Source of the DNA: Amycolatopsis mongoliensis
Lineage (GTDB): Bacteria; Actinomycetota; Actinomycetes; Mycobacteriales; Pseudonocardiaceae
Length of the DNA stretch: 64,000 nt
NCBI RefSeq assembly: GCF_030285665.1
Contig: NZ_CP127295.1
Span: 2,232,001 to 2,296,000 of the forward strand
Direction of reading: 5' to 3'
How positions within the stretch are numbered: position 1 is the first letter of the stretch; each line of letters starts with the position of its first letter. The position numbers were made by a program, and so were the translations under genes. The notes under the pieces are model-generated. The model saw only the letters and a program-made list of their open reading frames with translations, was not told the DNA's origin and did no database searches. This document shows positions 14,488 through 37,967 of this stretch, in pieces.

Positions 14488-16260
14488 CTAGCGGAGGGTG
14501 AACGTGACGAGGTCCGTCGACTCGGTGCGGGTGAGCGGCAGCCCGTCGAGCGGCCGGGTGAGCGCCTGTTCGTACGGCGTTCCGGCGGCGCCGACCTTCA
14601 GCACCAGCACCCGCGGGATGCCGTACTTGCGCAGCACGTCGACGCTGTGGGTATCCGGGAACGTCTTGAACGCCTCGTTGATCTCGAGGTACTGCGGCGG
14701 CAGGAGCCCGTTGTGGCCGTTGGCGAGCGTCGGGAAACCTTCGACGGACCAGAACTGGTAGACGAACTCGCTGAACGGCCGGTCGGGTTCCTGGACCATC
14801 GGCAGGATCAGCGCCGGGCCCGGGTCGTCGCGGAAGGCCTTGGCGAGGTCCGGCGGGATGCCCGGCGGCGTCGGGTGCGGGACGTCCGGGATGCCCTCCA
14901 CCAGCGCGAACAACGCGGGCACCACGAGCAGCAACTGGAGGAAGCGGCCCTGTCCGTACGACGTGTTCCGGGTGCGCAGCCACTCGGCCGCGCGGGTGAG
15001 CGCGCCCGCGGCGAGCAGGATCAGCAGCAGGAGCACCCACAGCATCAGGCGGCCGGGCGTGCGCAACGCGTCCCAGCCCGGCAGGTACCGCCACAGGATG
15101 TAGTAGGTGTAGTCGCCGCCGAAGAACTGCGAGCCCATCGCGAACACGAACACCACGACCGAGCCGACGCCGAGGGCGGCCCGCACCCGGACCGACCACG
15201 CGCTGAAGAACAGCCCCACGAGCGCCACGACCAGCAGCGCCAGCCCGGGGAACAGGACCTTCTCGGACGCGCCGGGCTGCATGAGCCAGTTCGAGTCGAC
15301 CAGGACACCGGTGTTCGGGTCCAGTGGCGTGCCCTGCCACAGCCAGGTCGAGCTGAGGGTGGTGAACAGCCCGTCCGCCGGCGGCGAAAAGACCTTGACC
15401 TCGTCCCAGGGCCGGACGAACCCGTAGTCGGTGACGACCTGCCGGTACGGAACGGTCATCAGGTAAGTGACGACAAGGAAGATCACGACGCCGGCGCCGT
15501 CGAGCACGGCCAGCCGGGTGCCGAACGACCGCCACCGCCGCAGCGCCGTCACCAGGATGACGAGCCCGACGACGCCCAACAGGTAGATGAACGGGAGACC
15601 GACGGCGAAGCCGAGCGTCACCTGCCACGCCGCGACCACCCAGCCGACGAACGCCCACCAAGGGCGGGCCAGCTCGGGACGGCGGCCGTGCCGCAGGGAG
15701 TAGCCGTGGCCGCGGGCCAGCGCGAAGAGCGCGAGGGCGATCCCGCCCGAGGAAAGGATGTTGAGGTGGCTGATGTGGGTCAGCCGCCACGGCGCCCAGG
15801 CGAAGGCGACACCGGCCAGTGCCGCGGCCTGCCAGGTCCCGCCCAGCTGGCGCACAAGCAGGTAGGCGCCGGCGTAGGCCAGCGCGAAGGAGATCAGGAA
15901 GACGATGTTGTAGCGGAAGACCGCGGCGTACTGACCGTCGCCGAACAGGGTCAGCGGCAGGTAGCCGAGCAGCGAGTCGGAAAAGGCGAAGCTGTCGGGC
16001 CCCGGGAAGAGCGTGTTGCCCGTCCACAGTGGCCCACCGCCGGTCGCGAAGTTGTGCTGCCACGCCAGCTGCCACGCCTGCAGCAGCGGGTCGCCGAGGT
16101 CGGCGGTGACGAGCGACTTCGGGTGCAGCAGGACGGGATAGTTGAACAGGGCGGAAAGGACTCCGCCGACGATCAGGGCGAACAGGCCTTCGCGGGCCCG
16201 TGCCGTCGGGCGGAGACGAACGATCGCGCGCTGCGGCCTGGGTGGTGCTTCGGTTGTCAC
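14488..16260 (-). CDS. Polytopic membrane protein, GT-C glycosyltransferase-like
   Basis: A 590-residue integral membrane protein with about 11-12 hydrophobic helices. The first outer loop after helix one carries an acidic motif (TADLGDPLLQAWQ) of the sort that holds the catalytic Asp in GT-C enzymes using lipid-phosphate sugars. FAWAPWRLTHISHLNIL and the soluble C-terminal part (about 100 residues, PQYLEINEAFKTF) are typical of actinobacterial conserved glycosyltransferase-like membrane proteins. GTG at 16260 is chosen because AGAGGGGAG precedes it; in-frame sequence further upstream is not membrane-like. It is divergent from the glycan block at 16471-26051, which supports a role in transferring sugar outside the membrane, but the donor and acceptor are unknown. 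Confidence 0.82.
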   Translation of the reverse strand: MTTEAPPRPQRAIVRLRPTARAREGLFALIVGGVLSALFNYPVLLHPKSLVTADLGDPLLQAWQLAWQHNFATGGGPLWTGNTLFPGPDSFAFSDSLLGYLPLTLFGDGQYAAVFRYNIVFLISFALAYAGAYLLVRQLGGTWQAAALAGVAFAWAPWRLTHISHLNILSSGGIALALFALARGHGYSLRHGRRPELARPWWAFVGWVVAAWQVTLGFAVGLPFIYLLGVVGLVILVTALRRWRSFGTRLAVLDGAGVVIFLVVTYLMTVPYRQVVTDYGFVRPWDEVKVFSPPADGLFTTLSSTWLWQGTPLDPNTGVLVDSNWLMQPGASEKVLFPGLALLVVALVGLFFSAWSVRVRAALGVGSVVVFVFAMGSQFFGGDYTYYILWRYLPGWDALRTPGRLMLWVLLLLILLAAGALTRAAEWLRTRNTSYGQGRFLQLLLVVPALFALVEGIPDVPHPTPPGIPPDLAKAFRDDPGPALILPMVQEPDRPFSEFVYQFWSVEGFPTLANGHNGLLPPQYLEINEAFKTFPDTHSVDVLRKYGIPRVLVLKVGAAGTPYEQALTRPLDGLPLTRTESTDLVTFTLR

Positions 16261-16470: not shown

Positions 16471-17607
16471 ATGAGCTGGCAGGACGATCTGCGCCGACTC
16501 GACGCGGATCTGGCGGCCGGCCGGATCGAGCCGGCCGCACACCGGAAACAGCGTGACGAGCTGCTCGCGCAGGCGTCGGGTTCGACCGTCCCCTCACCTG
16601 TCCCCTCACCGCTGCGCCGGCCCGCGACCGCTTGGCACAGCACGAACCCCGCCGGCCAGCAGCCGGTCGACCCGCGGACCGCGCCGCCGCAGCGCATGGA
16701 GTCGCCGTCCACCGGGCCGCACCAGCCACCACGCCCGGCCCCGCCGTGGCAGCGGACCGACTCCGGCGCGCAAAGAACGCTCTCCCACCACGGAGTCCCA
16801 GCGGTCCCCGACCACCTCACCACCGCACCGAGCCCGGCCGACATCACCCCTACGCGCTACATGCGGGTCGAAGGGCCGGGTCCGGAGCCCGACCCGATCA
16901 GCCGGTTCCCACCCCTCGGCCGTCAGGTGCACCACCGGCCGGAGGAACCCGAGGAGGCGCCGGGCAGGCACCGCTACGGCAGTTCCACCGGCAGCGGGCG
17001 GCCGGCCTGGCTGTTCATCAGCCTCGGCGTGCTGGTCGTGCTGCTGATGGTCGTCGGCGTGACCGCGTGGCTCGGCTCGGGCGACGACACGCCGTCGCAG
17101 GGCGCGCCGGCGCCCGGGACGTCATCGTCCGCGGCCGGGGTCCGGCCCGACCCGCTGGAAGACCGGTTGCCGAAGCTGCCCGGCGACCCCAACCCGAACA
17201 ACTCGACGATGGCGATCGAGAAAGCGCGGGACCTGGGCCTGATCCCCGCCCCGACGGCCGACCTGTTCACCTCGAACGGTGCCAAGGAGATGGTGTTCCG
17301 CGGCAGCGCCGACGGTGACGTCCACTATCTCGTGCTGGTCATCCCGACGAGCAGCGCCGTGAACGCGCAGACCGTCGTCGAGACGCTCTACCAACAGGGA
17401 CTGGCGTCCGGTATGCACTCGGTCAGCGCCGATGTCCGGACCATCTCCGGCCACATCGACGACCAGTTCCTCAACACCAGCTGGTACGGCTCGGGCAACA
17501 ACGCCATCGTCATCGGCGTCGGGCTCCCCTACAAGGGCCAGTACGCGATGAGCGGCGAGCTGGCCGAGATGGTGAAGCAGTTCGAAAGCGTCCTGCCGGC
17601 GGGGTAA
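16471..17607 (+). CDS. SHOCT-like N-terminus, Pro-rich linker, single-TM envelope protein (paralogue 1)
   Basis: A 378-residue protein in four parts. A short helical module (MSWQDDLRRLDADLAAGRIE) resembles the SHOCT domain but sits at the N-terminus. A Pro/Thr/Arg-rich cytoplasmic linker of about 150 residues follows, then one transmembrane helix (near 185-208, LFISLGVLVVLLMVV). The C-terminal extracytoplasmic domain has about 150 residues (NTSWYGSGNNAIVIGVGLPY). ATG at 16450 is an alternative start. The next gene is a paralogue with the same architecture. The outer domain has no recognised family. Position at the head of the glycan locus suggests a link to wall or surface polysaccharide, by inference only. 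Confidence 0.8.
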   Translation: MSWQDDLRRLDADLAAGRIEPAAHRKQRDELLAQASGSTVPSPVPSPLRRPATAWHSTNPAGQQPVDPRTAPPQRMESPSTGPHQPPRPAPPWQRTDSGAQRTLSHHGVPAVPDHLTTAPSPADITPTRYMRVEGPGPEPDPISRFPPLGRQVHHRPEEPEEAPGRHRYGSSTGSGRPAWLFISLGVLVVLLMVVGVTAWLGSGDDTPSQGAPAPGTSSSAAGVRPDPLEDRLPKLPGDPNPNNSTMAIEKARDLGLIPAPTADLFTSNGAKEMVFRGSADGDVHYLVLVIPTSSAVNAQTVVETLYQQGLASGMHSVSADVRTISGHIDDQFLNTSWYGSGNNAIVIGVGLPYKGQYAMSGELAEMVKQFESVLPAG

Positions 17608-17715
17608 CGGGTGGGGTCACGAAACGACCCTCCGAGGCCCGGCGAGCAGGGCTGAGTGCACAATGATGCGTGAGCTGGCTCAGCTGGCAACCGCTGACGA
17701 GATAGGGGGCCGGGT

Positions 17716-18924
17716 TTGTCCTGGCAGGAGGAACTGCGCCGGTTGGACGAAGAGCTGGCCGCTGGCCAGATTTCGGCCGACGACTACCGGATGCGCCGGG
17801 ACAGTGTCCTGTCCGCGGCCGTGAACGCCGATCCCCACGCGGCCCCGATCCAGGGCGGTCCGGCGGAGAGCACCCAGATCATCGCCCCGGTCAACTCGCC
17901 GCAGAGCGGTGCGACACCGGCGCAGCCCGGGGGCTCGACATCGGCCGACCAGACCCAGATCGTGAACTCGTCCTTCGGTGACGGCGAACGAACCCAAGCC
18001 GTCAACCAGGGGTCGCCGCAGGGCTGGGCCCCGGGCGGCCAGGCCGGTGACGCCGACCGCACGCAGGTCGTGCCGGGCGTGCCGCCGCAGGCGGTCGCCG
18101 GTGGGTACCGGCCGGCGGGCCAGGGGTCCGGCGGGTTCCCCGCGCAGCCGACGCCGCAGTACCACCCGCCGCAGGGTCAGCAGATGCCCTGGAACGTCCC
18201 CAGCCAGGACACGAGCACGCCGTGGGGCGGCTCCGACTTCCCGGCCGACAGCAACTGGGTCGCGCAGGGCCCCGAGCCGTCGTTCGAGGCCGCCCCGGCC
18301 AAGGGCGGCAAGAAGATCATCGCGATCGTCATCGCGATCGTCGTGCTCGCCGGGCTCGGCGTCGGCGGGTACTTCCTCTTCTCCGGCAACGACGACAAGA
18401 CGCCGCCGGTCGCGCAGTCGTCGAGCGCGGCCCCGTCGCCGACGCAGAAGCCGAAGGACGACCTCGAGATCGCGAAACTGCCGGGGAACGTCCTGGCGAC
18501 CAACGACTTCGCGTCCTTCGCCGACCTCAAGGCGGCCAAGGCCCTCACCGACGGCGAGTTCCAGGCGCTCGCCGACGCGAGCCCGACGAAGGCCCGCCAG
18601 TCGGTGTCCAAGCTGCCGTCCGGGGCGACCGCGGTCGTGCTGACCGTGCTGGCCTCCGACGCGTCCGCCGCGTCGAGCGCCGTCGAGGGGCTCACCGACC
18701 AGCAGGTCAAGTTCAAGCTCGTCAAGTACAGCGGCACCACGCCTCCCGGGGTCGAAGTGATGCAGCTGGTCAACAACGACGGCGTCTCCCTGATCCGCGC
18801 GCACTACGTGCACAAGCAGACCGTCGTCCGCGTGCACGTCGACGGGCCCGACATGGCCACCGTCTCGAAGGTGTTCGACGAAATCCTCGCGAAGCAGCTG
18901 ACCGAGCTGCCCGCCACCGGCTGA
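17716..18924 (+). CDS. SHOCT-like N-terminus, Gln/Pro-rich linker, single-TM envelope protein (paralogue 2)
   Basis: A 402-residue paralogue of the preceding protein. It opens with LSWQEELRRLDEELAAGQIS from a TTG start behind GGGGG. The long linker repeats the motif T-Q-(I/V)-(I/V) four times (TQIIAP, TQIVNS, TQAVNQ, TQVVPG), a spaced pattern that could be phosphorylation or docking sites. One transmembrane helix (near 200-222) leads to a domain of about 160 residues outside the membrane (LPGNVLATNDFASFADLKAAKAL). Its stop is one base before the start of the glycosyltransferase gene, so the two are almost certainly translated from one message. That spacing is the strongest sign that these proteins belong to the glycan pathway. 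Confidence 0.85.
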   Translation: MSWQEELRRLDEELAAGQISADDYRMRRDSVLSAAVNADPHAAPIQGGPAESTQIIAPVNSPQSGATPAQPGGSTSADQTQIVNSSFGDGERTQAVNQGSPQGWAPGGQAGDADRTQVVPGVPPQAVAGGYRPAGQGSGGFPAQPTPQYHPPQGQQMPWNVPSQDTSTPWGGSDFPADSNWVAQGPEPSFEAAPAKGGKKIIAIVIAIVVLAGLGVGGYFLFSGNDDKTPPVAQSSSAAPSPTQKPKDDLEIAKLPGNVLATNDFASFADLKAAKALTDGEFQALADASPTKARQSVSKLPSGATAVVLTVLASDASAASSAVEGLTDQQVKFKLVKYSGTTPPGVEVMQLVNNDGVSLIRAHYVHKQTVVRVHVDGPDMATVSKVFDEILAKQLTELPATG

Positions 18925-18925
18925 C

Positions 18926-21301
18926 ATGGCGGGAAGCGGCCCCGCCCGGATCACCGCCTGCACCGTCGTCACCGCGGACCGGCGCGCCGTCGCGGACGTG
19001 CTCGCCGGGTCCTACCGGGCGCACCACCCCGGGCACGGATTCACCACGCTCGTCGCCGATGACGCCGAGGTGCCCGGCGAGCTCGGCCTGGACCCGGACG
19101 AGTACCACCGGCTGGTCACCTCCCACGCCGGCGCAGACCTCGTCGACGTCCTCCGGCCGCTCCTCGTGCGCACTCTGCTGGACCGGTACGACGTCGTCGT
19201 CCTGCTCGACCCGGACGTCGAGGTCCACGCGCCGTTCGAGGACGTCTGCGTGCTCGCCGCGGAACGCGGAATCGTCGTCACGGCGGCCCTGCTCGAACCG
19301 CTGCCGCAGGACGGCCTGGAGCCGGAGCACGTGCCCGGTGTCTTCGACGGCTTCCTCGCCGCCGGGCCGGCCGCCCGGCCGTTCCTCGACCACTGGGCCG
19401 GCCAGGCGCGCCGGCGCCCGCCGCACCGGACCGAGCCGACCTGGCGCTGGCCGGACCTGCTGGCCGGGGTGTTCGCCCACCACGTCGTCCGCAACCCCGG
19501 TCTCGCGGTCGGCTACTGGAACCTGCACGAACGCCCCCTCGCCGAGCTGAAGTTCTTCGCCTTCCGGGGTTACGACCCCGAGACGCCGTGGCTGCTGACC
19601 ACCGACTGCGGGCACCGGCCCCGGGTCCGGCTGTCGGCCGACCCGGCGCTTCGCGATCTCTGCGAAAGCTACGGCGAACGCGTTGCCCGGGAGGCCGAGG
19701 ACGTCGAGGCACCGTACGAAAAGCTGCCCGACGGCACCCCGCTCACCACCCAGATGCGGCAGCTCTACCACGACACCTGGAGCCGTGCGGAACGCTTCCG
19801 GCACACGTCCGACCCGCTCGGCCGGATCGCCGGCGAACTCCCGCCGCACCCGTTCGGCGACGACGGCGGCCGTGCGTTCCGGCGGTGGCTGGCCGAACCC
19901 GCGTCCCCGCTCGACGCCGCCACCGGGCTGACGCGGCTGGCCGCCGCCGTCTGGCTCGCCCGCGTCGACCTGCAGGCGGTGTTCCCGCACCCGCGCGGCG
20001 CGAGCCGGGACGGCTTCCGGCGGTGGTGCGCCACCCACGGCATCGAGGAAGGCCTCGTGCCGGAGTGGGCCGTGCCGACGGAGCCACCGCCACCGGTCGC
20101 ACCGGTGGACGGCTTCGGCGTCAACGTCGCCGGCTACCTGACCGCCGAGCTCGGGCTCGGCGAGATGGCCCGGGTGGTCCAGCGGGCCATCGCCGCGGCC
20201 GGCGTGCCGATGGTGTCGGTCGTGGAGGAGCACTCGCTGTCCGGGTCGGTCCGCACCGGCCTGGCGGCGCCGGCCGACGTCGGCGTGCCGCGGTTCGGAG
20301 TCAGCCTGCTGACCGTGAACTCGGACTTCACCCGGCTGATCCTCGATACCCACCCGGACACCGGGGCGGGACGCTACCGGATCGGGCTGTGGGCGTGGGA
20401 GCTCGAGGACTTCCCGGCCGCGATGCACGACGGGTTCGCGTTGGTCGACGAGATCTGGACGCCCAGTGAGTTCGCCACCAGGGCGATCGCGGCGCACTCG
20501 CCGGTCCCGGTCCGGACCATTCCGGTCCCGGTGCCAGATCCCGGCGAACCCGCGCGCGAACCGGGTCCGGTCACCCAGTTCCTCTTCATCTTCGACTTCA
20601 ACTCCACCGGCGGCCGGAAAAACCCGTGGGGCGTCGTCGAGGCGTTCCACCGCGCCTTCCCGGGCCGCGACGACGTCCGGCTCGTCCTCAAGGCGACCAA
20701 CGGGCACCTCAACACGCCCGCGGTCGAGCGGCTGCGCCGCGTGATCGGCGACGACGCGCGCATCGAGCTCCAGGAGCGTTACCTCACAGTGACCGAACTC
20801 GGGGCCCTGTATGCCGGGACCGACGCCTACGTTTCGCTGCACCGCAGCGAGGGCTTCGGGCTCACGGTCGCGGAGGCGATGGTCAGGGGGATACCGGTGA
20901 TCGCCACCGACTACTCGGGCACGACGGAGTTCTTCGGGCCCGAGCACGGCTGGCCGGTGCCGTACGCGATGACCGACGTCGGCCCCGGCTGGCCTCCCTA
21001 CCAGCCCGAAGGCCGGTGGGCCGACCCCGACCTCGACGCCGCCGCCGAGGCGATGCGTTCGGTCGCCGACGACCGGGACGAAGCCCGGCGCCGGGGGCAG
21101 GCCGCCCGCGCGCACATCCTGCGGACCCGCTCGACGGACACCGCCGCGGCATGGATGCGCGAGCGGCTGGCGGAGGCGCACCAGGCCTGGCTCGCCGACC
21201 GGCGAGCGTCCGCGTCGCGGCGGCATCCTCTGGTCGCCGGTGCCCGGCGGGTACTCCGGCCGGTCCGCGCCGCGGCTCGGCGGATGGGAGTGACGTCGTG
21301 A
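18926..21301 (+). CDS. Two-domain glycosyltransferase (GT-A-like plus GT4)
   Basis: A 791-residue cytosolic enzyme. The N-terminal 270 residues resemble a nucleotide-sugar-binding GT-A fold, with a DxD-type acidic motif in VVLLDPDVEV. A linker follows; the second part, from about residue 405 (GFGVNVAGYLTAELGLGEMARV), is a GT-B GT4-family transferase. It contains FIFDFNSTGGRKNPWGVVEAF and the E-x7-E type signature in SLHRSEGFGLTVAEAMVRG. The enzyme probably adds two different sugars or makes a repeating disaccharide. It is the first of four genes joined by 1-25-bp gaps or overlaps, and its stop overlaps the next start as GTGA. Donor sugars are unknown, though GDP-mannose-derived 6-deoxyhexose is suggested by the nearby gmd. 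Confidence 0.88.
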   Translation: MAGSGPARITACTVVTADRRAVADVLAGSYRAHHPGHGFTTLVADDAEVPGELGLDPDEYHRLVTSHAGADLVDVLRPLLVRTLLDRYDVVVLLDPDVEVHAPFEDVCVLAAERGIVVTAALLEPLPQDGLEPEHVPGVFDGFLAAGPAARPFLDHWAGQARRRPPHRTEPTWRWPDLLAGVFAHHVVRNPGLAVGYWNLHERPLAELKFFAFRGYDPETPWLLTTDCGHRPRVRLSADPALRDLCESYGERVAREAEDVEAPYEKLPDGTPLTTQMRQLYHDTWSRAERFRHTSDPLGRIAGELPPHPFGDDGGRAFRRWLAEPASPLDAATGLTRLAAAVWLARVDLQAVFPHPRGASRDGFRRWCATHGIEEGLVPEWAVPTEPPPPVAPVDGFGVNVAGYLTAELGLGEMARVVQRAIAAAGVPMVSVVEEHSLSGSVRTGLAAPADVGVPRFGVSLLTVNSDFTRLILDTHPDTGAGRYRIGLWAWELEDFPAAMHDGFALVDEIWTPSEFATRAIAAHSPVPVRTIPVPVPDPGEPAREPGPVTQFLFIFDFNSTGGRKNPWGVVEAFHRAFPGRDDVRLVLKATNGHLNTPAVERLRRVIGDDARIELQERYLTVTELGALYAGTDAYVSLHRSEGFGLTVAEAMVRGIPVIATDYSGTTEFFGPEHGWPVPYAMTDVGPGWPPYQPEGRWADPDLDAAAEAMRSVADDRDEARRRGQAARAHILRTRSTDTAAAWMRERLAEAHQAWLADRRASASRRHPLVAGARRVLRPVRAAARRMGVTS

Positions 21302-22572
21302 CGCGCACCGAAGGTCCGAAGTCCACGCTGCCGCCGGTCTACGAGGCGTTCCTCCCGCGCGAGCACGCGCTGTACCGGCCCCGGCACGGCGGCAAGCAGC
21401 TGATCGCGCTGCTGTGCGCGACCGTCTTCTTCGCGACCCCGGTTCTGTCGGCGGTGCTCGGCGCGCAACCGTCGGAGTTCGAGAACCGCAAGCTGACGCC
21501 GTTCCCGAGCATCGGACAGGGCTGGTCGTTCTTCACCCAGCTGAGCCAGTGGACGACCGACCACCTGGTGTTCCGCGAGCAGGCGGTGCACGCGGCCGAC
21601 GGCATCAGCCGCGGGGTGTTCGGCGAGCCGCCCCCGCTGCACCAGGAGAACCAGCAGGGTCCGCTCCAGGTGCCCGACAACACGCCGGCGAAGCTGGACC
21701 CGCGCCAGTTCCCGGACGTCATCGAGGGCAAGGACGGCTGGCTCTACCTCGGCGACGAGGCCACGAGCCACTGCGTGCAGCACGTCAGCCTGGACACGAC
21801 GTTCGCCGCCCTGCGCTCCTTCCGCGACGCGGTCGAGGCGTCCGGGCGACAGTTCGTGGTCGTCGTCGCACCGGACAAGATCGGCATGGTCCCGGAGCAC
21901 CTGCCCGCCAGCTACCTGGGCAAGGACTGCCGTGACAAGGTGGCCGACGACTTCTGGCGCCGGGTGGACGCCGAGAACTTCATGCTCGACCTGCGCGGCC
22001 CGATGCAGGAGTGGGCGAGCCGCAAGGGTTCGCCGCTCTACGGACCGCAGGACGCGCACTGGGGCGACGAAGGCGCCATCACCGCGGTGCGCTCGGTCGT
22101 CGAGAAGCTGCGGCCGGGGATCAGCGAGAAGTGGCGGCTCCAGCCGAAGGGCGACTGGCAGCTGCCGGCCGACCTGCCCCCGCTGATCGGCCGGACCGGG
22201 ACCACGTCGGGAACGCACTACGCGCTGATGCCGGACGGCCGGACCGACCGGACACGGCCGATGCCCAGCGACTACGTCACCCCGGTGCACACCGACACCG
22301 CGCGCGGGGACGGCACCTACGGCCTGCGCACGGCGTGGATCGGCGATTCCTTCACCGTCCGCGCCCTGCCGTACCTCGCGGCGGCGTTCGGCGACCTGAC
22401 CGCGCTCCACACGAGCACGGCCGACCACGACGGCGGCGAAGCCATCGGGGACCTGCTCAAGCGCAGTGACGTCGTGGTGGTCGAGCTGACCGAACGCGGT
22501 TTCGCCGCCGGCTCGGTGTCGCTGTTGTCACCCGGTGTCGAGCAGAACATCTTCCGCAAGCTCAACCCGTGA
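21298..22572 (+). CDS. AlgX/AlgJ-like SGNH acyltransferase-type protein
   Basis: A 424-residue protein with an N-terminal transmembrane or signal-anchor helix (about residues 33-55, LIALLCATVFFATPVL) and a large extracytoplasmic domain. KDGWLYLGDEA, the DxH(W) motif in GPQDAHWGDEGA and the GDSF motif in WIGDSFTVRALPYL are those of the ALGX/SGNH-hydrolase-like domain. In alginate machinery this domain O-acetylates the growing polymer. Ser of GDSF, with Asp and His of DAHW, would form the catalytic triad. The GTG start at 21298 overlaps the upstream stop. The likely role is O-acylation of the polymer made by the flanking glycosyltransferases. An accompanying membrane-bound O-acyltransferase (AlgI type) is not present in the window. 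Confidence 0.85.
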   Translation: MTRTEGPKSTLPPVYEAFLPREHALYRPRHGGKQLIALLCATVFFATPVLSAVLGAQPSEFENRKLTPFPSIGQGWSFFTQLSQWTTDHLVFREQAVHAADGISRGVFGEPPPLHQENQQGPLQVPDNTPAKLDPRQFPDVIEGKDGWLYLGDEATSHCVQHVSLDTTFAALRSFRDAVEASGRQFVVVVAPDKIGMVPEHLPASYLGKDCRDKVADDFWRRVDAENFMLDLRGPMQEWASRKGSPLYGPQDAHWGDEGAITAVRSVVEKLRPGISEKWRLQPKGDWQLPADLPPLIGRTGTTSGTHYALMPDGRTDRTRPMPSDYVTPVHTDTARGDGTYGLRTAWIGDSFTVRALPYLAAAFGDLTALHTSTADHDGGEAIGDLLKRSDVVVVELTERGFAAGSVSLLSPGVEQNIFRKLNP

Positions 22573-22596
22573 CGAGAGCGAACCAGGGAACCGAGA

Positions 22597-23703
22597 ATGT
22601 CTGCTGACCGCGTGGCCGCCGCACTGGCCCGCCTCGACGAGCACCGCGAGCTGCACCTGCCGCTGCGCAAGAGCGACCTGCTGGGCCGGTTGGCCCTGCG
22701 CTTCCTGTGGAAGCGCCAGGTGAAGTGGCAGATCGAAGCCAACCTGGCGATCCGGGACGCGCTCGAAGCCGTCCACGAGCAAACCCAGGGCGGGGACGGC
22801 AGGCTCGTCCGGCACCCCGAGCTGGTCCACGAGATCGAGCAGCTCCGGCGGCACGACCAGACGATGACCGCCGGGCTGAACCAGCGGCTGTACTCCGGAC
22901 TCGGCCGGGTCGAGTCGCAGCTGAGCGAGATGCGGCTGCGCCACGCGGAAAGCGCCGAGTCCGGCGACGACGTCGAGCAGCGGCTGAAGGCCATCGAGAC
23001 GCAGGTCGCCGCGCTGGCGTCGGCGGCCACCGACGTCCGGCTCCGGCACGCTCAGCTGGACCTCGCGCTCGACCGCGTCCGCGCCGGGCAGGAGCCGGCC
23101 GACGTCGAGGCCGCCGACCGCGAGTCCTTCCTCGAGCTCGCGCTGATCGAGCTGCTCGACGGTCCCGCGGACCACGTCCGCGAAGCCCGCCGCAGCCACC
23201 TGCCGCTGGTCACCGCCGCCCGCGAAGCCGGCGCCACCGGCCCGGTCTTCGACGTCGCGCCGGCCCGCGGTGAGTGGCTCGAAGTCCTGCGCTCGGCCGG
23301 GTTGCCGATCGCGGCGGCGTCGGACAACTCGCTGGTCCGGAAGCACTGCGCCGGGCTCGGCTTCGACATCGACGCGCGGGAGCCGCTGGCCGCGCTCGCC
23401 GCCCGGCCGCCGCGCTCGCTGGGTGCGGTGACGGCCTTCCGGTTCGCCGAGCGCCTGGCGCCGGACGTCCTCGCCCGTTTCACCGACCTCGCCGCGACCG
23501 CGCTGCAGCCCGGCGGGGTGCTGCTCGTCGAGACGCCGGCTTCGGAGGCCGACCTACGGCTGGACCCGTTCGCCCGCAAGGCGTTGCCCGCCGTCTACCT
23601 GCGGTTCCTCGCCGAAGCTTCGGGCTTCGCCGACGTCGAGGTCACTTCGGTCGAGGCCCCGCACGGGCTCGGCGAGCGGCTGCGCCTGGTCGCCCGCCGA
23701 TGA
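22597..23703 (+). CDS. Coiled-coil protein with degenerate SAM-methyltransferase domain
   Basis: A 368-residue protein. The first 180 residues are mainly helical and charged, with heptad-like spacing (VEQRLKAIETQVAALASAA), probably a coiled coil. The C-terminal 170 residues align with class I methyltransferases seen in glycan loci: the post-core motif LQPGGVLLVETPASEADLRL is well kept, but motif I reads FDVAPARGEWLEVL where DxGCGRGEFL is expected, so the Gly-rich SAM loop is broken. It may still bind SAM weakly or act only as a scaffold. Coiled-coil plus methyltransferase is the plan of WbdD, which ends and measures O-antigen chains, so a similar chain-length role is an attractive inference. 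The stop overlaps the next start as ATGA. Confidence 0.8.
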   Translation: MSADRVAAALARLDEHRELHLPLRKSDLLGRLALRFLWKRQVKWQIEANLAIRDALEAVHEQTQGGDGRLVRHPELVHEIEQLRRHDQTMTAGLNQRLYSGLGRVESQLSEMRLRHAESAESGDDVEQRLKAIETQVAALASAATDVRLRHAQLDLALDRVRAGQEPADVEAADRESFLELALIELLDGPADHVREARRSHLPLVTAAREAGATGPVFDVAPARGEWLEVLRSAGLPIAAASDNSLVRKHCAGLGFDIDAREPLAALAARPPRSLGAVTAFRFAERLAPDVLARFTDLAATALQPGGVLLVETPASEADLRLDPFARKALPAVYLRFLAEASGFADVEVTSVEAPHGLGERLRLVARR

Positions 23704-26051
23704 CGGGGTCGCGGGCGCGCGCCGCGGTGTGGACGCCGCTGCCGCCGCAGACCAGCGGCATCGCGGACTACAGCTACCGGCTGCTCGAAGCGCTGTCCGA
23801 ACTGGTCGACGTCACCGCGGTGCACAAGTCGCCGTCGGCACGCGTGCCGGACGGCGTCGAGCTGCGGCGACCGAGCGATCCCGGCGACGGCGTGCCGGTC
23901 TACCACATGGGCAACCACGCGGGGGTCCACGGCGAGATCTACCGCGAGGCGATCAAGAACCCCGGCGTCGTCGTGCTCCACGACCCGGCGCTGGTCGACT
24001 TCCACGCCGGGTACTTCGGCAGCTACACCAGCGAGGCGTTCGCGGCGGAGGTGCGGTACGCGCACGGCCCGATCTGGGGCCACTCCACGGATCCCGCACT
24101 GCTGCACGGCATGCCGGCCATCGAGGTCGACGGCGTCAAGACGCTCGACTACGCGACGTTGACCCTGGAACGACGGCTCGTGACGAACAGCCGTGGCGTG
24201 ATCGTCCACGACCCGCACACGGCGAAGTTCCTCCAGGCGCGGTACCCCCACGTTCCGGTGCACGCCGTGCCGCTCGGCGCGACGCTGCTCGACGGCTCCC
24301 GGCGCGACACGATCCGCGCCGAGCTGGGCTGGACCGACGACCAGGTCGTGTTCGGTGTGTTCGGCAGCTTGGTCCGGTACAAGCGGGTGCCGGCCGCCGT
24401 GCTGGCGTTCGCCGAGCTGCGCCGCCGCTGGCCGAACGCCCGGCTCGTCGTCGCCGGGCACGCCGGTGACCCCGAGCTGCTGGCCGGACTCCGGCAGACC
24501 ATCGAGCAGAGCGGCGCGGCCGGCTCCGTCCACTTCGAACTGTCGCCGGACGAAAACCGGTTCGACGAACTGATCCTCGCCACCGACGCGGTGATCAGCC
24601 TCCGCTGGCCGACCGCCGGCGAGACCAGCGCCGTGATGATGCAGGCCCTCGGCGCCGGGCGGACGGTGATCGCGAGCGACCTGCCGCAGCACCGGCACTT
24701 CGACCCCGCGTTCGTGTGGACCGTGCCGACCGATCCGGCGGGCGAGGCGGCCGGGCTCTACCGGCTGCTGGAACGCGGGATGTACTGGCCCGAAGAGCTG
24801 CGCGCGGCCGGGGACCTGGCCCGCAAGTGGGTCGGCGAGAACGCGAGCTGGCCGATCGCCGCCCAGGGCTACACGAAGGCGATCGAAGCGGCACTTCCCG
24901 AACCAGCACCCGAAGTTCGGCGCCCCGGCGTCAACACCTTCGCCGACGTCCGCGCCACCACCGGCTTGTCGGAGTCGGCGCGGCGGCACATCCAGGCCCT
25001 CGCCGCGACGGACACGAACGTCACCTTCACCGAGTTCAACAGCCAGGCGCCGTACCGCTCGGTCGAAATCCCGCCGGACATCGCCGCGCTGCGCCGCGGC
25101 AAGGAGTTCGACGTCGACCTCTGGATCGTCAACGTCAACGAGTGGCAGCTGATCCCCGAGCACGCGCTGGACCGCTACACGATCGCGCTGTGGGCGTGGG
25201 AACTGCCGGAACCGCCGCCGCACGCGCTGCCGCACCTGCCGGGCATCGACGAGCTGTGGGTGCTTTCGTCGTTCGTCTCGGACGCGTTCCGCACGGTCAC
25301 CGACATCCCGATCCTCGTCGTGCCGAGCGTGGTGCCGCACGCGCCGGGCATCCAGCCCGACCGGGCGCGGCTCGGCCTGCCGGAAGACGGCCTGATCGTG
25401 CTGTACACCTTCAGCGCGTCGTCCAGTGACGCGCGGAAGAACCCGTGGGCGCTGATCGAGGCGTTCCGCCGCGCGTTCCCGCCGGAGGAGCGGGGCACGA
25501 AGGCCCACCTGGTGCTCAAGGTGAACAACCTCGAACGCTTCCCGGAGCTGGACGCGGCGTTGACCGCGGCGATGGCTTCGGTCGGCGGCACGTTGCTCCG
25601 GCGCGAGATGTCCCGCGACGACATGGACACGCTGCTCGCGAGCTGCGACATCTACGCGTCGCTGCACCGGTCCGAGGGCTTCGGCATGGGCATGGCCGAG
25701 GCGATGGCGATGGGCAAGCCGGTGGTGGCCACCGGTTTCAGCGCCAACACCGACTTCATGCCGCCGGGTTCGGCCGCGGTGGTCGGGTACGACGTCCGCC
25801 CGATCTCGAAGCACGACCACCGGTTCGGCGCCGAGTTCGGCGACTGGTACACCGTCGGTCAGCTGTGGGCGGAGCCGGACGTCGACCAGGCCGCGCAGTG
25901 GCTGCGGCGGCTCGCGGACAGCCCCCGGCTGCGCGCGTCCATGGGTGAGCGGGCGATCCAGGCGATCCAGGACTGGTCCAGCCCGGCCGCCGTCGGCAAG
26001 GTCATGACGGACCGGCTGGCGCAGCTCGCCCGCGAGCGCGCGGCTCAGTAA
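23700..26051 (+). CDS. Tandem GT4 glycosyltransferase (two GT-B domains)
   Basis: A 783-residue cytosolic enzyme of two glycosyltransferase units. The first (1-400) opens WTPLPPQTSGIADYSYRLL, a typical GT4 acceptor-side start, and has GSLVRYKRVPAAVLAFAELR and RWPTAGETSAVMMQALG. The second (410-783) has YTFSASSSDARKNPWALIEAF and the strong signature SLHRSEGFGMGMAEAMAMG. A nearly identical second half occurs in the two-domain enzyme at 18926-21301, so they share ancestry. The start is fixed by the ATGA overlap with the preceding methyltransferase. It ends the plus-strand operon and overlaps the convergent FkbM gene by 7 bp. It probably extends a polymer together with the other transferase. Confidence 0.88.
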   Translation: MTGSRARAAVWTPLPPQTSGIADYSYRLLEALSELVDVTAVHKSPSARVPDGVELRRPSDPGDGVPVYHMGNHAGVHGEIYREAIKNPGVVVLHDPALVDFHAGYFGSYTSEAFAAEVRYAHGPIWGHSTDPALLHGMPAIEVDGVKTLDYATLTLERRLVTNSRGVIVHDPHTAKFLQARYPHVPVHAVPLGATLLDGSRRDTIRAELGWTDDQVVFGVFGSLVRYKRVPAAVLAFAELRRRWPNARLVVAGHAGDPELLAGLRQTIEQSGAAGSVHFELSPDENRFDELILATDAVISLRWPTAGETSAVMMQALGAGRTVIASDLPQHRHFDPAFVWTVPTDPAGEAAGLYRLLERGMYWPEELRAAGDLARKWVGENASWPIAAQGYTKAIEAALPEPAPEVRRPGVNTFADVRATTGLSESARRHIQALAATDTNVTFTEFNSQAPYRSVEIPPDIAALRRGKEFDVDLWIVNVNEWQLIPEHALDRYTIALWAWELPEPPPHALPHLPGIDELWVLSSFVSDAFRTVTDIPILVVPSVVPHAPGIQPDRARLGLPEDGLIVLYTFSASSSDARKNPWALIEAFRRAFPPEERGTKAHLVLKVNNLERFPELDAALTAAMASVGGTLLRREMSRDDMDTLLASCDIYASLHRSEGFGMGMAEAMAMGKPVVATGFSANTDFMPPGSAAVVGYDVRPISKHDHRFGAEFGDWYTVGQLWAEPDVDQAAQWLRRLADSPRLRASMGERAIQAIQDWSSPAAVGKVMTDRLAQLARERAAQ

Positions 26052-26968
26052 CGGCGGACGCCGAGCTGGGCTTCCAGCTCGGCGACGCGGTGTTCGAGCG
26101 CGGCCGCGCGACGGCGGTGCTCTTCGGCCGTCCGGCGGGCCTGCGCGAGTTCCTGCCGCGCGGCGTCCAGCTGCGCACCCAGCTCGCCGCGCGCCTTCTG
26201 CGCCGCTTCCACCGTCTCCTCGAGCCGCCGGATGTACGCAACTTCGGACGGCCGGGCCTGGCGCAGCTGATCCCGCTCTTCGCGCACTTCGGCCGCCGCG
26301 TAGCGCTCGAAGTCGTCGAAGACGTTCGCGGGCGCAGCCAGTGCGGCCAGCGCGTCGGTGTCGGTGGCCTGGGCGTAGAAGCGGTTGAGGCCGTCGAACA
26401 GCCCGCAGCGGTAACCCGCTTCGAGCAGCATCGGCTCCCACTCGTCGTGGGCGGGCTTCGGCGAGCCGGGCTCGGTCGCCTCAACGACGAGCACCCGCGG
26501 CCGGTGGCGGCTCCAGTCGGCGCCCTCGATCACCGCGCGTTCCGCGCCTTCGACGTCGATCTTGAGGAAGTCGACGGGCCCGGGGTGCCGGTCGAGCAGC
26601 TCGGCCAGCGTGACGACCTCGACCTCGACGTCCCGGACCGCCCAGTCTTCGCTGTACTGCTCGGCGAGCGAGTCGTCGACGGTCGCGCGGCCCCACTGGC
26701 CGTCGACCACGTGCAGCACGGTCTTGCCGGGCCGGGCCCCCACGGCGACGCGGAGGTTGCGGTCCTCGGGGCGCTCCCGGTCGAGCTCGTCGGCCAGAGC
26801 CGGTTCCGGCTCGACGTTGATCCCGCGCCAACCCAGGTCGTAGAAGTGCTTGGTGACCGAGTCCCGCGTCGGATAGCCGGCACCCAAGTCGACATAACGA
26901 CCGGTCGCCTGGCCCGCGAAGACCCGGGCCAGGACGACGTCCTCCGCGTTCTGCGCGTAGGAAATCAC
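26045..26968 (-). CDS. FkbM-family methyltransferase with C-terminal coiled coil
   Basis: A 307-residue SAM-dependent O-methyltransferase. FkbM features are the opening [14 protein letters not shown], the SAM-binding [17 protein letters not shown], and the hallmark [18 protein letters not shown] (about residues 125-142). From about 225 on, a charged helical tail ([20 protein letters not shown]) is predicted to be a coiled coil; similar tails occur in glycan-modifying enzymes. The GTG at 26968 overlaps the stop of gmd (GTGA), so the two are co-translated. It probably methylates a sugar hydroxyl of the glycan. This is the second coiled-coil methyltransferase of the locus. Confidence 0.9.
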
Positions 26969-27960
26969 GGGAGCGAGATCCCGGCCTTCTTGGCTTCGAG
27001 GCGCAGGTCGTGGTCGACCATCATGGCGACCAGGTCCTCGAAGCCGACCTCGGGCTTCCAGCCCAGCTCGGTGTGGGCCTTGGTGGCGTCGCCGACCAGG
27101 AGGTCGACCTCGGCGGGCCGGAAGAACCTCGGGTCTTGCTGGACGAACCGCTCCCAGTCGTCGAGGCCGGCGTGCTTGAACGCCAGGTCGACGAAGTTGC
27201 GGACGCTGTGCGTGCGGCCGGTCGCGACGACGTAGTCCTGCGGCTCGTCCTGCTGCAGCATCTGCCACATCGCGCGGACGTAGTCGCCGGCGAAGCCCCA
27301 GTCGCGGCGCGGGTCGAGGTTGCCGAGCACCAGCTTTTCCTGCAGCCCGAGCTTGATCCGCGCGACGGCGTTGGTCACCTTGCGGGTGACGAACTCCATG
27401 CCGCGGCGCGGGCTCTCGTGGTTGAAGAGGATGCCCGAGCAGGCGTAGAGGCCGTAGCTGTCGCGGTAGTTCACGGTGATGTCGTGCCCGAACACCTTCG
27501 CCACGCCGTAGGGCGAGCGCGGGTAGAACGGCGTGTCCTCGGTCTGCGGCGACTGCCGGACCTTGCCGAACATCTCCGAGCTGGACGCCTGGTAGAAGCG
27601 GATCGGGTTGTTCTGGCTCCCGCCGACCATCCGGACGGCGTCGAGCAGCCGCAGCACCCCGAGCCCGGTGACGTTCGCCGTCAGCTCGGCCTGCTTGAAG
27701 GAGAGCGCGACGAAGGAGATCGCGCCGAGGTTGTAGACCTCGTCCGGCTGCACCTGCTCCAGCACCCCGACCAGGCTCGACAGGTCCTGCAGGTCGCCCT
27801 CGACGATCTCGACGAAGGGGTACTCCGTGCGGATCATGTCGATCCGAGGGTTGTTCTGCCCCTTGACCAGGCCGAACACCTCGTACTGCTGCTCGTGGAG
27901 CAGCTCGGCGAGATATTGGCCATCCTGACCGGTGATACCGGTGATCAACGCACGTCGCAC
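26965..27960 (-). CDS. gmd: GDP-mannose 4,6-dehydratase
   Basis: An NAD(P)-dependent SDR-superfamily enzyme converting GDP-D-mannose to GDP-4-keto-6-deoxy-D-mannose, precursor of GDP-rhamnose, GDP-fucose or GDP-perosamine. The Rossmann motif TGITGQDG is at residues 8-15, the catalytic Ser/Glu region at [10 protein letters not shown] and Tyr/Lys in [23 protein letters not shown] and the substrate loop [18 protein letters not shown] are hallmark gmd sequences. The 331-residue length is usual. The enzyme that would finish the sugar (RMD reductase, GDP-fucose synthase or aminotransferase) is not in this window. Co-translated with the FkbM methyltransferase downstream. Confidence 0.96.
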
Positions 27961-35639: not shown

Positions 35640-37406
35640 CTAGCGCCCGGCCGCGTAGCCCTGCATGCCGCGGGCGTTGGCCGCTGCCCGCAGCAGACCG
35701 TCGGAGCGCGAAACCGCCGACAACCGGCCCAGGGCCCAGTCGCCCGCGTCCAGGACCTGGTGGCCGCGGGCGCGCAGGGCGTCCAAAGTGGACGCACCCA
35801 GCCGGGACTCGACCACCAGCTCGCGCGGGTTCCACGAGCGCGGGTAGAACGAGCTCGGGAACGCCGTCGTGTGCCAGGCCGGCGAGTCGATCGACTCCTG
35901 GAGGTTCAGGCCGCCGTACACGTGGGCCAGCCAGAAGCACAGCTGCCACTGGTCCTGCTGGTCGCCGCCCGGGGTGCCGAACGCCAGCGTCGGGACGCCG
36001 TCGCGCAGGGCCAGCGACGGCGACAGCGTGATGCGCGGGCGCTTGCGGGGCGCCAGCGAGTTCGGCAGGCCCTGTTCCAGCCAGAACATCTGCCCCCGCG
36101 AATCGAGGCAGAAGCCCAGCGACGGGATCGTCGGGCTCGACTGCAGCCAGCCGCCCGACGGCGTCAGCGACACCAGGTTGCCCGCCGCGTCGACGACGTC
36201 GAGGTGCACCGTGTCGCCGCGGGTCTGGCCCTGGGGGCCGATCGTCGGCTCGCCCGTCGCGCCGCCCTCGACCTGCACGCCCTGCAGCGAGTCCAGGATC
36301 GCCGGGAGCCGGGCCGGACCACGAGCGTCCCCGGGGCGGAGTTCGGCGGACGCCGTGTCGGTGATCAGGGCACGCCGGGCGTCGGTGTATTCAGCGGAGA
36401 GGAGCACGTCCAGCGGGACGTCCGTGTCGCCGTACCAAGCCTCGCGGTCCGCGAAGGCCAGCTTTGCCGCCTCGACCGCCAGGTGCACCGTGCGCTCCGA
36501 CGCGACGCCGTCCACAAAGGACAGTTCGTCGCGGAAGCCGTGCATCAGCAGCGCCTGCTGCAACAACGCCGGCCCCTGCGTCCAGCCGCCCATCTTGACC
36601 AGGCGCCAGTCGCCGACGTCGACCGAAGCCGGTTCTTCGTACGACGCCGACCACGACGCCAGGTCGTCACCGGTCAGCAGGCCCGCGTGGTCGCGACCGG
36701 AGTCGTCGCGGAAGGCCTGCCGGCTGAACTTCTCGATCGCTTCAGCGACGAAACCCTGTGACCAGGCACGACGTCCCGCGTCGATCTGCGCTTCCCGGCC
36801 GGAGACGGACTCCGCCTCCCGCAGGAGACGTTCCCAGGTGTCCGCCAGCGCCGGGTTGCGGTGCAGGCCGGACGCGGGCTTGCCGTCCGGCAGCCAGAGC
36901 GACGCCGACGTCGGCCAGTGCTCGACGAACAGCCGCTCGACGGCGCGGATCGTGTCGCCGACCCGCGAAACCAGCGGGACGCCGTTGCGCGCGTAGCCGA
37001 TCGCGTACGACAGCACCTCGCGAAGCGACTTCGTGCCGTAGTCGCGAAGCAGCAGGAGCCAGCCGTCCCACGCGCCGGGGACGGTCGCCGGGAGCAGGCC
37101 GCTGCCCGGGATGAGGTCCAGCCCCAGCGACGCGAAGTGCTCGGGCGTGGCCCCCGCGGGCGACGGGCCCTGGCTCGCCAGCGCCCGCGGGGTCGGGTCG
37201 TCCGCCGTCACGAAGAGGCCGGGTACCTGGCCCGCCGGGCCGCAGAGGTGCGGCTCGGCGACCTGCAGGACGAACCCGGCCGCGACCGCCGCGTCGAACG
37301 CGTTGCCGCCGTCCTCCAGCACCGCCATCCCGGTGGCCGAGGCCAGCCAGTGCGTCGATGCCACCATCCCGAAGGTGCCGGCCAGCTCCGGCCTCGTCGT
37401 GAACAT
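35640..37406 (-). CDS. Gamma-glutamyltransferase family protein
   Basis: A 588-residue N-terminal-nucleophile hydrolase that splits gamma-glutamyl bonds, as in glutathione or ergothioneine-type thiol turnover or gamma-glutamyl peptides. The precursor cleaves itself before a Thr nucleophile, here in RGDTVHLDVVDAAGNLVS. The large subunit (about 1-390) starts GMVASTHWLASATGMAVLEDGGNA, split across its first helix; the small subunit has APRKRPRITLSPSLALRDG and FGTPGGDQQDQW. No signal peptide is visible, so it is probably cytoplasmic. A TACTAT hexamer ends 6 bp before the ATG at 37406, which suggests a leaderless transcript. The symbol ggt is avoided because the family also includes acylases. Confidence 0.92.
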   Translation of the reverse strand: MFTTRPELAGTFGMVASTHWLASATGMAVLEDGGNAFDAAVAAGFVLQVAEPHLCGPAGQVPGLFVTADDPTPRALASQGPSPAGATPEHFASLGLDLIPGSGLLPATVPGAWDGWLLLLRDYGTKSLREVLSYAIGYARNGVPLVSRVGDTIRAVERLFVEHWPTSASLWLPDGKPASGLHRNPALADTWERLLREAESVSGREAQIDAGRRAWSQGFVAEAIEKFSRQAFRDDSGRDHAGLLTGDDLASWSASYEEPASVDVGDWRLVKMGGWTQGPALLQQALLMHGFRDELSFVDGVASERTVHLAVEAAKLAFADREAWYGDTDVPLDVLLSAEYTDARRALITDTASAELRPGDARGPARLPAILDSLQGVQVEGGATGEPTIGPQGQTRGDTVHLDVVDAAGNLVSLTPSGGWLQSSPTIPSLGFCLDSRGQMFWLEQGLPNSLAPRKRPRITLSPSLALRDGVPTLAFGTPGGDQQDQWQLCFWLAHVYGGLNLQESIDSPAWHTTAFPSSFYPRSWNPRELVVESRLGASTLDALRARGHQVLDAGDWALGRLSAVSRSDGLLRAAANARGMQGYAAGR

Positions 37407-37450
37407 GCCCCGATAGTACGCATTGCTAAGGAACTTTTGCCAGACAGCGC

Positions 37451-37867
37451 TTACCAAGACGTCGGGCGACGCCGATCCGGCTCGTACGGCTGCGTGATGA
37501 TTTCCATCCCGTTCCCACCGGGATCGAGGAAGTAGACGCCACGGCCGCCGTGGTTGTGGTTGATTTCGCCGAGCTGCTTCCCCATCGGGTCGGCGTGGTA
37601 GGTCACGCCCGTTTCGACGAGCCGCGCGAAGACGGCGTCGAAGTCGTCCTCCGGGATCAGGAAGCAGTAGTGCTGCAGGCGAAGGTCCTCTTCGGGGACG
37701 GTCGCGAAGTCCAGCCGGACGCCGTTGCGCGTCTCGACGGGGATGAACGGACCCCATTCCTCCCCGACTTCGAGGCCGAGCAGGTTCGCCAGGAATTCGG
37801 CGGATTCCCGGTTGTTCCGGGACGGGACGATCAGATGGTTCAATTCAACGGATACGGAAACTGACAC
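37451..37867 (-). CDS. VOC-family dioxygenase-like protein
   Basis: A 138-residue single-module glyoxalase/bleomycin-resistance/dioxygenase-fold protein. It begins VSVSVELNHLIVPSRNNRES; the His in LNHL is the usual first metal ligand, and GRGVYFLDPGGNGMEI carries the later Glu. GTG at 37867 follows GGAGG; no nearer ATG fits. It lies about 100 bp downstream of ugd on the same strand and about 45 bp upstream of ggt. Function within the family is unknown. Confidence 0.85.
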   Translation of the reverse strand: MSVSVSVELNHLIVPSRNNRESAEFLANLLGLEVGEEWGPFIPVETRNGVRLDFATVPEEDLRLQHYCFLIPEDDFDAVFARLVETGVTYHADPMGKQLGEINHNHGGRGVYFLDPGGNGMEIITQPYEPDRRRPTSW

Positions 37868-37967
37868 GATTGAAATGCCTCCACGGGCACTCCCGCCACC
37901 TCCATGCCTCACCCAGCCGGTGACCGACACGCGATGCCGTGCGGCCAGCCTAGCCAAGAGAGGGCCG

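Follow-up and report, generated by a model that had tools for sequence, protein, structure and literature searches.

A predicted polymorphic surface-glycan locus of Amycolatopsis and its methyltransferase-like protein without the canonical SAM motifs

Why would a bacterium keep, beside a large glycosyltransferase, a methyltransferase-like protein whose S-adenosylmethionine (SAM) loop is broken? The question is raised by a block of genes in a 64,000-nucleotide stretch (the window) of the 10.8-Mb chromosome of Amycolatopsis mongoliensis (NZ_CP127295.1, positions 2,232,001 to 2,296,000). A first-pass annotation had read this block as making a methylated, O-acylated 6-deoxyhexose polymer with a built-in chain-length ruler. 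The protein at its center, CCMT, has lost the SAM signature throughout its family, is under purifying selection, and occurs one-to-one with a glycosyltransferase, GTb, whose gene adjoins its own. We give about even odds (0.5) to a model in which the block is an allele at a surface-glycan site that varies between genomes, CCMT would be a catalytically dead scaffold or ruler for GTb, a separate FkbM-family methyltransferase would be the active one, and the acyltransferase ALGX would modify the product together with an MBOAT protein.

Active-site degeneracy and predicted fold of CCMT

A protein database search with CCMT, in which the 8,000 candidates sharing most words were scored, returned 109 proteins: a close family of 102 (42 to 97% identity) and, after a drop in score, seven canonical methyltransferases. 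Named family members come from genera of the Pseudonocardiaceae, a placement that we presume for some of them, and one is labelled merely Actinomycetota bacterium; a homologue from A. mediterranei (P0011) is among those returned. The roles given here to motif residues are those known for class I methyltransferases. They agree with the E/DXGXGXG motif as it is stated in PMC11231755.

Motif I, D-x-G-C-G-x-G-E in canonical enzymes, has become D-x-A/S-P-x-R-G-E in most of the family. A proline replacement is found in 100 of the 102 homologues and the glycine at the third place is retained in 45, while the first glycine and the cysteine are kept in none, so that the broken SAM loop seen by the first-pass annotation in one protein is real and family-wide. 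The ribose-binding acid is replaced by serine in 98 of the 101 homologues that cover the site (one of the 102 is partial), by threonine in two and by cysteine in one, and the histidine of the EHL motif is arginine in all 101. The seven canonical relatives keep motif I, the ribose acid, and the EHL histidine, with the exception of one alanine for the first glycine. Likewise, the SAM-dependent methyltransferase of Archaeoglobus fulgidus (3dli) has GCGRGE, VD, and EHL, none of which is complete in CCMT when the two are aligned. Judged by these positions, neither the window protein nor any of its 102 homologues appears to combine a functional SAM motif I with a ribose-binding acid.

Pseudogene decay was considered as a cause of the broken loop and rejected: the replacements are fixed in the family, and dN/dS is 0.20 to 0.37 on the methyltransferase fold. 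For the whole protein, dN/dS over six pairs is 0.23 to 0.39, indicating purifying selection; constraint on the N-terminal arm is weaker (0.24 to 0.63) and still below 1. Because the replacements are themselves conserved and selection is purifying, the signature is, on the sequence evidence, that of a stable pseudo-methyltransferase and not of decay.

The first-pass annotation had proposed a structure prediction for this protein, encoded at 22597-23703, which would reveal any rod-like coiled coil attached to a methyltransferase fold. The AlphaFold 2 (AF2) model has three long helices, predicted with moderate confidence, joined to a confident methyltransferase fold. No recognizable sequence relationship was found between CCMT and the FkbM protein of the same locus.

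A conserved cassette and its gene products

Two samples were searched, 80 Amycolatopsis genomes for the genus and 390 genomes of 46 genera for the family; only part of the first-look candidates was scored per genome (in the family sample, two for GTb, five for CCMT, four each for MBOAT and ALGX), and misses are therefore possible. CCMT is present at E 1e-30 in 25 of the 390 genomes, belonging to 6 of the 46 genera. Searched for independently at E 1e-100, GTb proved to be present in exactly the same 25 genomes, and it adjoins CCMT in all of them, from which CCMT would appear to have a dedicated multidomain glycosyltransferase partner of the WbdD type. The core genes S2, GTa, CCMT, GTb, and FkbM keep one order and one orientation at all 25 loci, which were selected by the presence of CCMT; L062 is a short stretch of 15 kb that begins at the end of a contig. 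This conservation, together with the low dN/dS of CCMT, places the arrangement beyond chance. At one locus (L073, genome G145) GTb was matched in two pieces and GTa called only in part. The genes are as follows, in window coordinates.

GTC, 14488-16260, minus strand: polytopic-looking membrane protein, divergent at the left; optional neighbor (14 of 25 loci)
S1, 16471-17607, plus strand: SHOCT-like N terminus, one transmembrane segment, and an extracytoplasmic domain; flanks the variable core (detected at 12 of 25 loci)
S2, 17716-18924, plus strand: SHOCT-like membrane protein related to S1; core (25 of 25)
GTa, 18926-21301, plus strand: 791 amino acids (aa), an N-terminal half (about 1-520) without family match and a GT4 half; core (25 of 25)
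ALGX, 21298-22572, plus strand: predicted membrane-anchored SGNH (AlgX/AlgJ-like) acyltransferase; accessory (20 of 25)
CCMT, 22597-23703, plus strand: helical arm (28-162) and degenerate class I methyltransferase fold (175-368), putative pseudo-methyltransferase; core
GTb, 23700-26051, plus strand: 783 aa, two GT4 domains, overlapping CCMT by 4 bases; core
FkbM methyltransferase, 26045-26968, minus strand: convergent, with a coiled-coil-like C-terminal tail (about 229-303); core (25 of 25)
gmd, 26965-27960, minus strand: GDP-mannose 4,6-dehydratase; accessory (17 of 25)

Domains of the window proteins were assigned with Pfam and NCBIfam; genes in the compared loci were called with a GC-position script and homology labels, with family searches for selected genes. 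From S2 to GTb, neighboring window genes either share 4 bases or lie 1 or 24 bases apart (a single base lies between S2 and GTa), and this tight spacing suggests one transcript. GTa, ALGX, CCMT, GTb, and FkbM are 73 to 94% identical to proteins of A. bullii, A. iheyensis, A. rifamycinica, and A. kentuckyensis.

The two glycosyltransferases have the size of about 790 residues reported by the first-pass annotation. The near-identity that it saw between their GT4 halves was rejected, identity being 31% across 479 aa. The GT4 family (PF00534, cut-off 26.4 bits) scores 45.5 bits in the C-terminal half of GTa and 78.3 bits in GTb, where it matches in two stretches and gives a GT4-plus-GT4 architecture; in GTa, the matches to PF20706 and PF00534 are confined to residues 524-742. 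A profile of 14 GTa N-terminal halves found nothing significant in the PDB (best E, 0.22), and the D-x-D-like LDPDVEV of the window protein is not conserved among the 14 relatives. A sequence search of the PDB with GTb gave no match at E 1e-3.

FkbM scores well above cut-off in its family (PF05050, 103.4 versus 22.7 bits; TIGR01444, 68.1 versus 37.7). The gmd gene converges from the other strand, as first annotated, and its product matches TIGR01472 at 430.8 versus 415 bits. It cannot be a constitutive part of the system: it is missing from 8 of the 25 loci, and in two of the genomes concerned (G058 and G257) a search at E 1e-60 found no gmd anywhere. In 24 of the 25 CCMT genomes no match to the GDP-fucose synthase (Fcl) family was found at E 1e-40. 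Loci of relatives lacking gmd or the acyltransferase, which the first-pass annotation had itself named as evidence that would count against it, do occur (8 and 5 of 25, respectively), and so neither the 6-deoxyhexose nor the O-acylation is constitutive; a surface glycan with methylation and O-acylation remains the likely product. Some cassettes carry an extra small methyltransferase gene beside GTb or FkbM (L060:6159-6884 and L047:5109-5918, by Pfam; similar genes in L063, L072, and L074).

ALGX lies between GTa and CCMT, as annotated; it matches PF16822 (65.6 versus 26.5 bits), resembles AlgJ (4o8v, E 6e-8) in the PDB, and has intact catalytic D-x-H-W and D-S motifs by alignment. Such SGNH proteins work with MBOAT proteins in the AlgX/AlgJ-AlgI systems and in the PatB-PatA acylation pair. 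The MBOAT search proposed by the first-pass annotation found a single copy in the genome, at 3061241-3062671 beside rlmB and cysS. The system resembles the known pairs in having an SGNH protein with D-x-H and Ser and an MBOAT gene that co-occurs with it; it differs from them in being actinobacterial and in the 807 kb that separate ALGX from MBOAT. By hand tally, MBOAT is present in 262, ALGX in 260, and both in 259 of the 390 family genomes, the exceptions being three genomes with MBOAT only (G191, G205, and G217) and one with ALGX only (G394). ALGX is missing from five cassettes, all of them in genomes of one genus (g33) that lack MBOAT; the genomes of the other 20 cassettes have MBOAT. MBOAT is therefore likely, on this distribution, to be the partner of ALGX.

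A single ALGX is present in every one of the 80 Amycolatopsis genomes, mostly at 41 to 48% identity to that of the window; in G032 and G073 (L095 and L096) it was matched in two separate pieces. A site between ZnuB and DUF445 genes holds ALGX in L011, L012, L013, L048, L094, and L096, and likewise in L095 with two kinase-like genes between; the corresponding place in the genome of A. mongoliensis (L044:760-854) holds none, its ALGX being in the glycan locus. In a tree of 31 ALGX proteins the 20 cassette copies group together (support, 85/88) and are joined by a copy from another genus, L008 (100/98), whereas the Actinophytocola copy L014, also near a GTa gene, groups with noncassette copies. 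On this grouping, the cassette ALGX is a lineage of its own.

Among the flanking genes, position 16471, with which the first-pass annotation began its surface-glycan locus, is the start of the separate gene S1; neither S1 nor S2 was named there. The N terminus of S1 looks SHOCT-like on our reading, and S2 matches DUF1707 below cut-off (15.7 versus 27.6). The two are related SHOCT-like proteins with a single transmembrane segment, and S2 accompanies every core type described below. The GT-C-like label given to the leftmost protein was not borne out, its only match being a weak one to MmpA in NCBIfam (29 versus 210 bits) and none in Pfam; it does diverge and look polytopic. Farther along the window, 35640-39179 holds genes that we take to encode gamma-glutamyltranspeptidase-like and UDP-glucose dehydrogenase-like proteins; in other genera, too, both lie close to the cassette (L065-L067 and L069; the first only in L068).

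Alternative cores at a polymorphic site

Three different cores are found in Amycolatopsis next to neighbors of the same kind, namely S1, S2, and genes for a response regulator, a histidine kinase, an XRE protein, and an MFS protein, with not all of these present in every stretch. The type I core is that of the window and is found in 9 of the 80 genomes; a weak, stop-containing tenth match, in G050, was excluded. The type II core, at 8 of the 16 loci fetched (L085-L090, L092, and L093), consists of a protein of about 1,060 aa with ALGX. Methyltransferase, GT2, and GT4 domains were confirmed for this protein in L085 and L092, and a coil-like stretch lies between methyltransferase and GT2 in L085, where it was checked. 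A separate second methyltransferase-like gene (445 to 488 aa) is present at seven of the eight loci and was checked in L085.

In the type III core (17 of 80 genomes), GTa lies within an open frame of 1,226 to 1,242 codons. In L055, where this was checked, one chain holds GTa and an FkbM domain with a coil-like stretch between them, as is also the case in Actinophytocola (L014), which has ALGX in addition. At the five type III loci fetched (L055-L059) there is no match to CCMT, ALGX, gmd, or a separate FkbM; an AT3 acyltransferase gene follows in L055, by Pfam, and in L057-L059, by similarity. A type IV core in other genera comprises S2, GTa, a methyltransferase, and ALGX at four loci (L097, L098, L099, which is the same as L008, and L100); its methyltransferase scores as canonical in Pfam (L008 and L098), and response regulator and histidine kinase genes were seen beside L099 only. 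Among the remaining loci, L094-L096 belong to the site between ZnuB and DUF445, and L091 could not be assigned to any core type.

At the chromosomal site beside these regulatory and transport genes, then, at least three glycan cores replace each other in Amycolatopsis, in the manner of an O-antigen locus. The window block would be one of the alleles at this site, which would be polymorphic for surface-glycan genes in Amycolatopsis and related genera.

Proposed function and competing explanations

In the model that we favor, GTa and GTb would assemble a chain on the cytoplasmic side. CCMT, its SAM catalysis lost, would hold GTb in the way that WbdD holds WbdA, as a scaffold of helices or a rod that sets chain length. 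FkbM would perform the real methyl transfer and may attach to the assembly by its coiled-coil-like tail. Gmd would make the GDP-6-deoxyhexose precursor for those alleles that draw on one. The chain would be exported and then O-acylated outside the membrane by ALGX with the single, remotely encoded MBOAT. The sugar, the polymer, and its acceptor in this scheme are what we infer from gene content.

The best analogy for the annotated built-in chain-length ruler is a coiled-coil ruler or scaffold. WbdD recruits WbdA via a noncatalytic region (PMC3482155 and PMC11231755). Like WbdD with WbdA in Escherichia coli O8/O9a, CCMT consists of a methyltransferase fold with a long helical arm and goes with a two-domain glycosyltransferase. 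The analogy gains weight from this pairing in 25 of 25 genomes and from alternative cores in which glycosyltransferase and methyltransferase form one chain with a coil-like stretch between (L055, L014, and L085). The order in L085, methyltransferase, coil-like stretch, GT2, GT4, is that described for ORF6 of Klebsiella pneumoniae O7, where terminator, ruler, and polymerase follow each other in one chain (PMC11231755). Unlike ORF6 and WbbB (O12), the latter a terminator-coil-glycosyltransferase chain, the window has these modules split over several proteins; the comparison is one of domain order, and no kinase was found here by Pfam. CCMT differs from WbdD in that its active site is apparently lost and the likely active methyltransferase is the separate FkbM protein, and in that it lacks the kinase of the O9a type (the O8 type is without it). 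The host is Gram positive, and no Wzt_C exporter was found. WbdD structures are absent from the best 50 matches of Foldseek and VIA-align for CCMT, which is uninformative either way.

Several observations weigh against the favored model. The arm is N terminal in CCMT, whereas the coil of WbdD follows the methyltransferase. Heptad periodicity of the arm is marginal when compared with shuffles (P, 0.047), and that of the fused-chain stretches does not clearly exceed them (P, 0.17 in L085, 0.10 in L055, and 0.09 in L014). Both methyltransferases had been credited with coiled coils at first; the helical arm of CCMT stands in the AF2 model, but the tail of FkbM gives sub-cut-off matches to coiled-coil families (e.g., ATG16, E 2e-5) and a heptad P of 0.18. 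CCMT has no kinase match in Pfam, and no further domain is left in its AF2 model. FkbM has no PDB relative by sequence search (none at E 0.1), and its activity is presumed from family membership. The first 520 or so residues of GTa match no Pfam family. Of the Wzm/Wzt exporter that the first-pass annotation would have sought, the C-terminal glycan-binding domain of Wzt (PF14524) was found in 0 of 25 CCMT genomes and in 2 of 14 controls, the search not covering Wzt without that domain. With so few candidates scored per genome, a distant CCMT or GTb copy could be missed; the MBOAT-ALGX count includes related genomes, and the joint absence of the two from the genomes of five cassettes, all of genus g33, may be one event. 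Finally, SAM or some other ligand may still be bound in the altered CCMT pocket, and retained binding would also fit the conservation of the replacement residues.

A rival view takes CCMT for a working methyltransferase whose SAM site is unusual, an ordinary chain terminator of the WbdD O8 type. Its fold is predicted intact and with confidence, selection is purifying, and R224 and G225 are retained in 102 of 102 homologues, N244 and E285 in 101 of 101, and E226 in 93 of 102; moreover, P0104, among the seven canonical relatives that fall outside the family, bears the source name O-antigen chain-terminating methyltransferase. We nevertheless consider this quite unlikely, given the complete loss of the motif I Gly-Cys, ribose acid, and EHL histidine and the presence of the FkbM methyltransferase at all 25 loci. 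A more serious, if still doubtful, contender is that the product is a short glycan or a protein or lipoglycan decoration instead of a long polymer, with CCMT a mere membrane or complex anchor. The lack of Wzt_C, the absence of an ABC exporter or polymerase among the genes called in the window cassette, and the different lengths of the CCMT stalk flanks would suit it, and S1 and S2 could be carriers. The two large multidomain glycosyltransferases, and an alternative core with the methyltransferase-coil-glycosyltransferase order described for polymer machines, speak for a long chain.

It also seems improbable that ALGX serves some other genome-wide polymer and came to this locus by chance relocation. 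Its universal presence in the 80 Amycolatopsis genomes at generally moderate identity and its different position near ZnuB/DUF445 in L011, L013, L048, and L094-L096 imply that its substrate may be general, but it stands within the variable core at the eight type II loci and in the ALGX cassettes, beside quite different enzymes, and ALGX-less type III loci carry the AT3-like gene (L055 and L057-L059). A role in natural-product (antibiotic) glycosylation is hardly credible for this gene cluster: gmd and FkbM are familiar from such clusters and the genus is rich in them, but the gene order is conserved in six genera, the double-GT4 and ALGX contents do not fit, and no synthase-like gene was noticed by eye among the called neighbors, for which no systematic search was made.

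Within the favored model, a stronger and rather improbable version would make CCMT a ruler no longer capable of terminator catalysis, with a stalk segment of fixed length (55 residues) and obligately bound to GTb, chain stopping having passed to the tail-docking FkbM. According to PMC11231755, chain-length control by coiled-coil rulers is established in Gram-negative O-antigens, with ruler and terminator in one protein. As far as open-access searches show, the parts of the present system are of known kinds and what is new is the stable loss of the catalytic signature across a family of long-armed methyltransferases tied one-to-one to a dual GT4 protein in Gram-positive bacteria. By title and opening of the abstract, no open-access paper listed in these searches appears to deal with this locus or with such a dead coiled-coil methyltransferase; the word pseudo-methyltransferase occurs in one listed paper, on the meningococcal capsule locus (PMC6619384).

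Amycolatopsis is a genus used for antibiotic production. For it and its relatives, our model predicts a variable, O-acylated surface polymer and assigns the remote MBOAT to it. A dead CCMT tied to its own dual glycosyltransferase would, if this is true, split the ruler and terminator jobs and make them separately testable. If CCMT is indeed a ruler without catalysis, Gram-positive bacteria would have a coiled-coil ruler system too, encoded at a chromosomal site where split and fused forms of one machine are exchanged.

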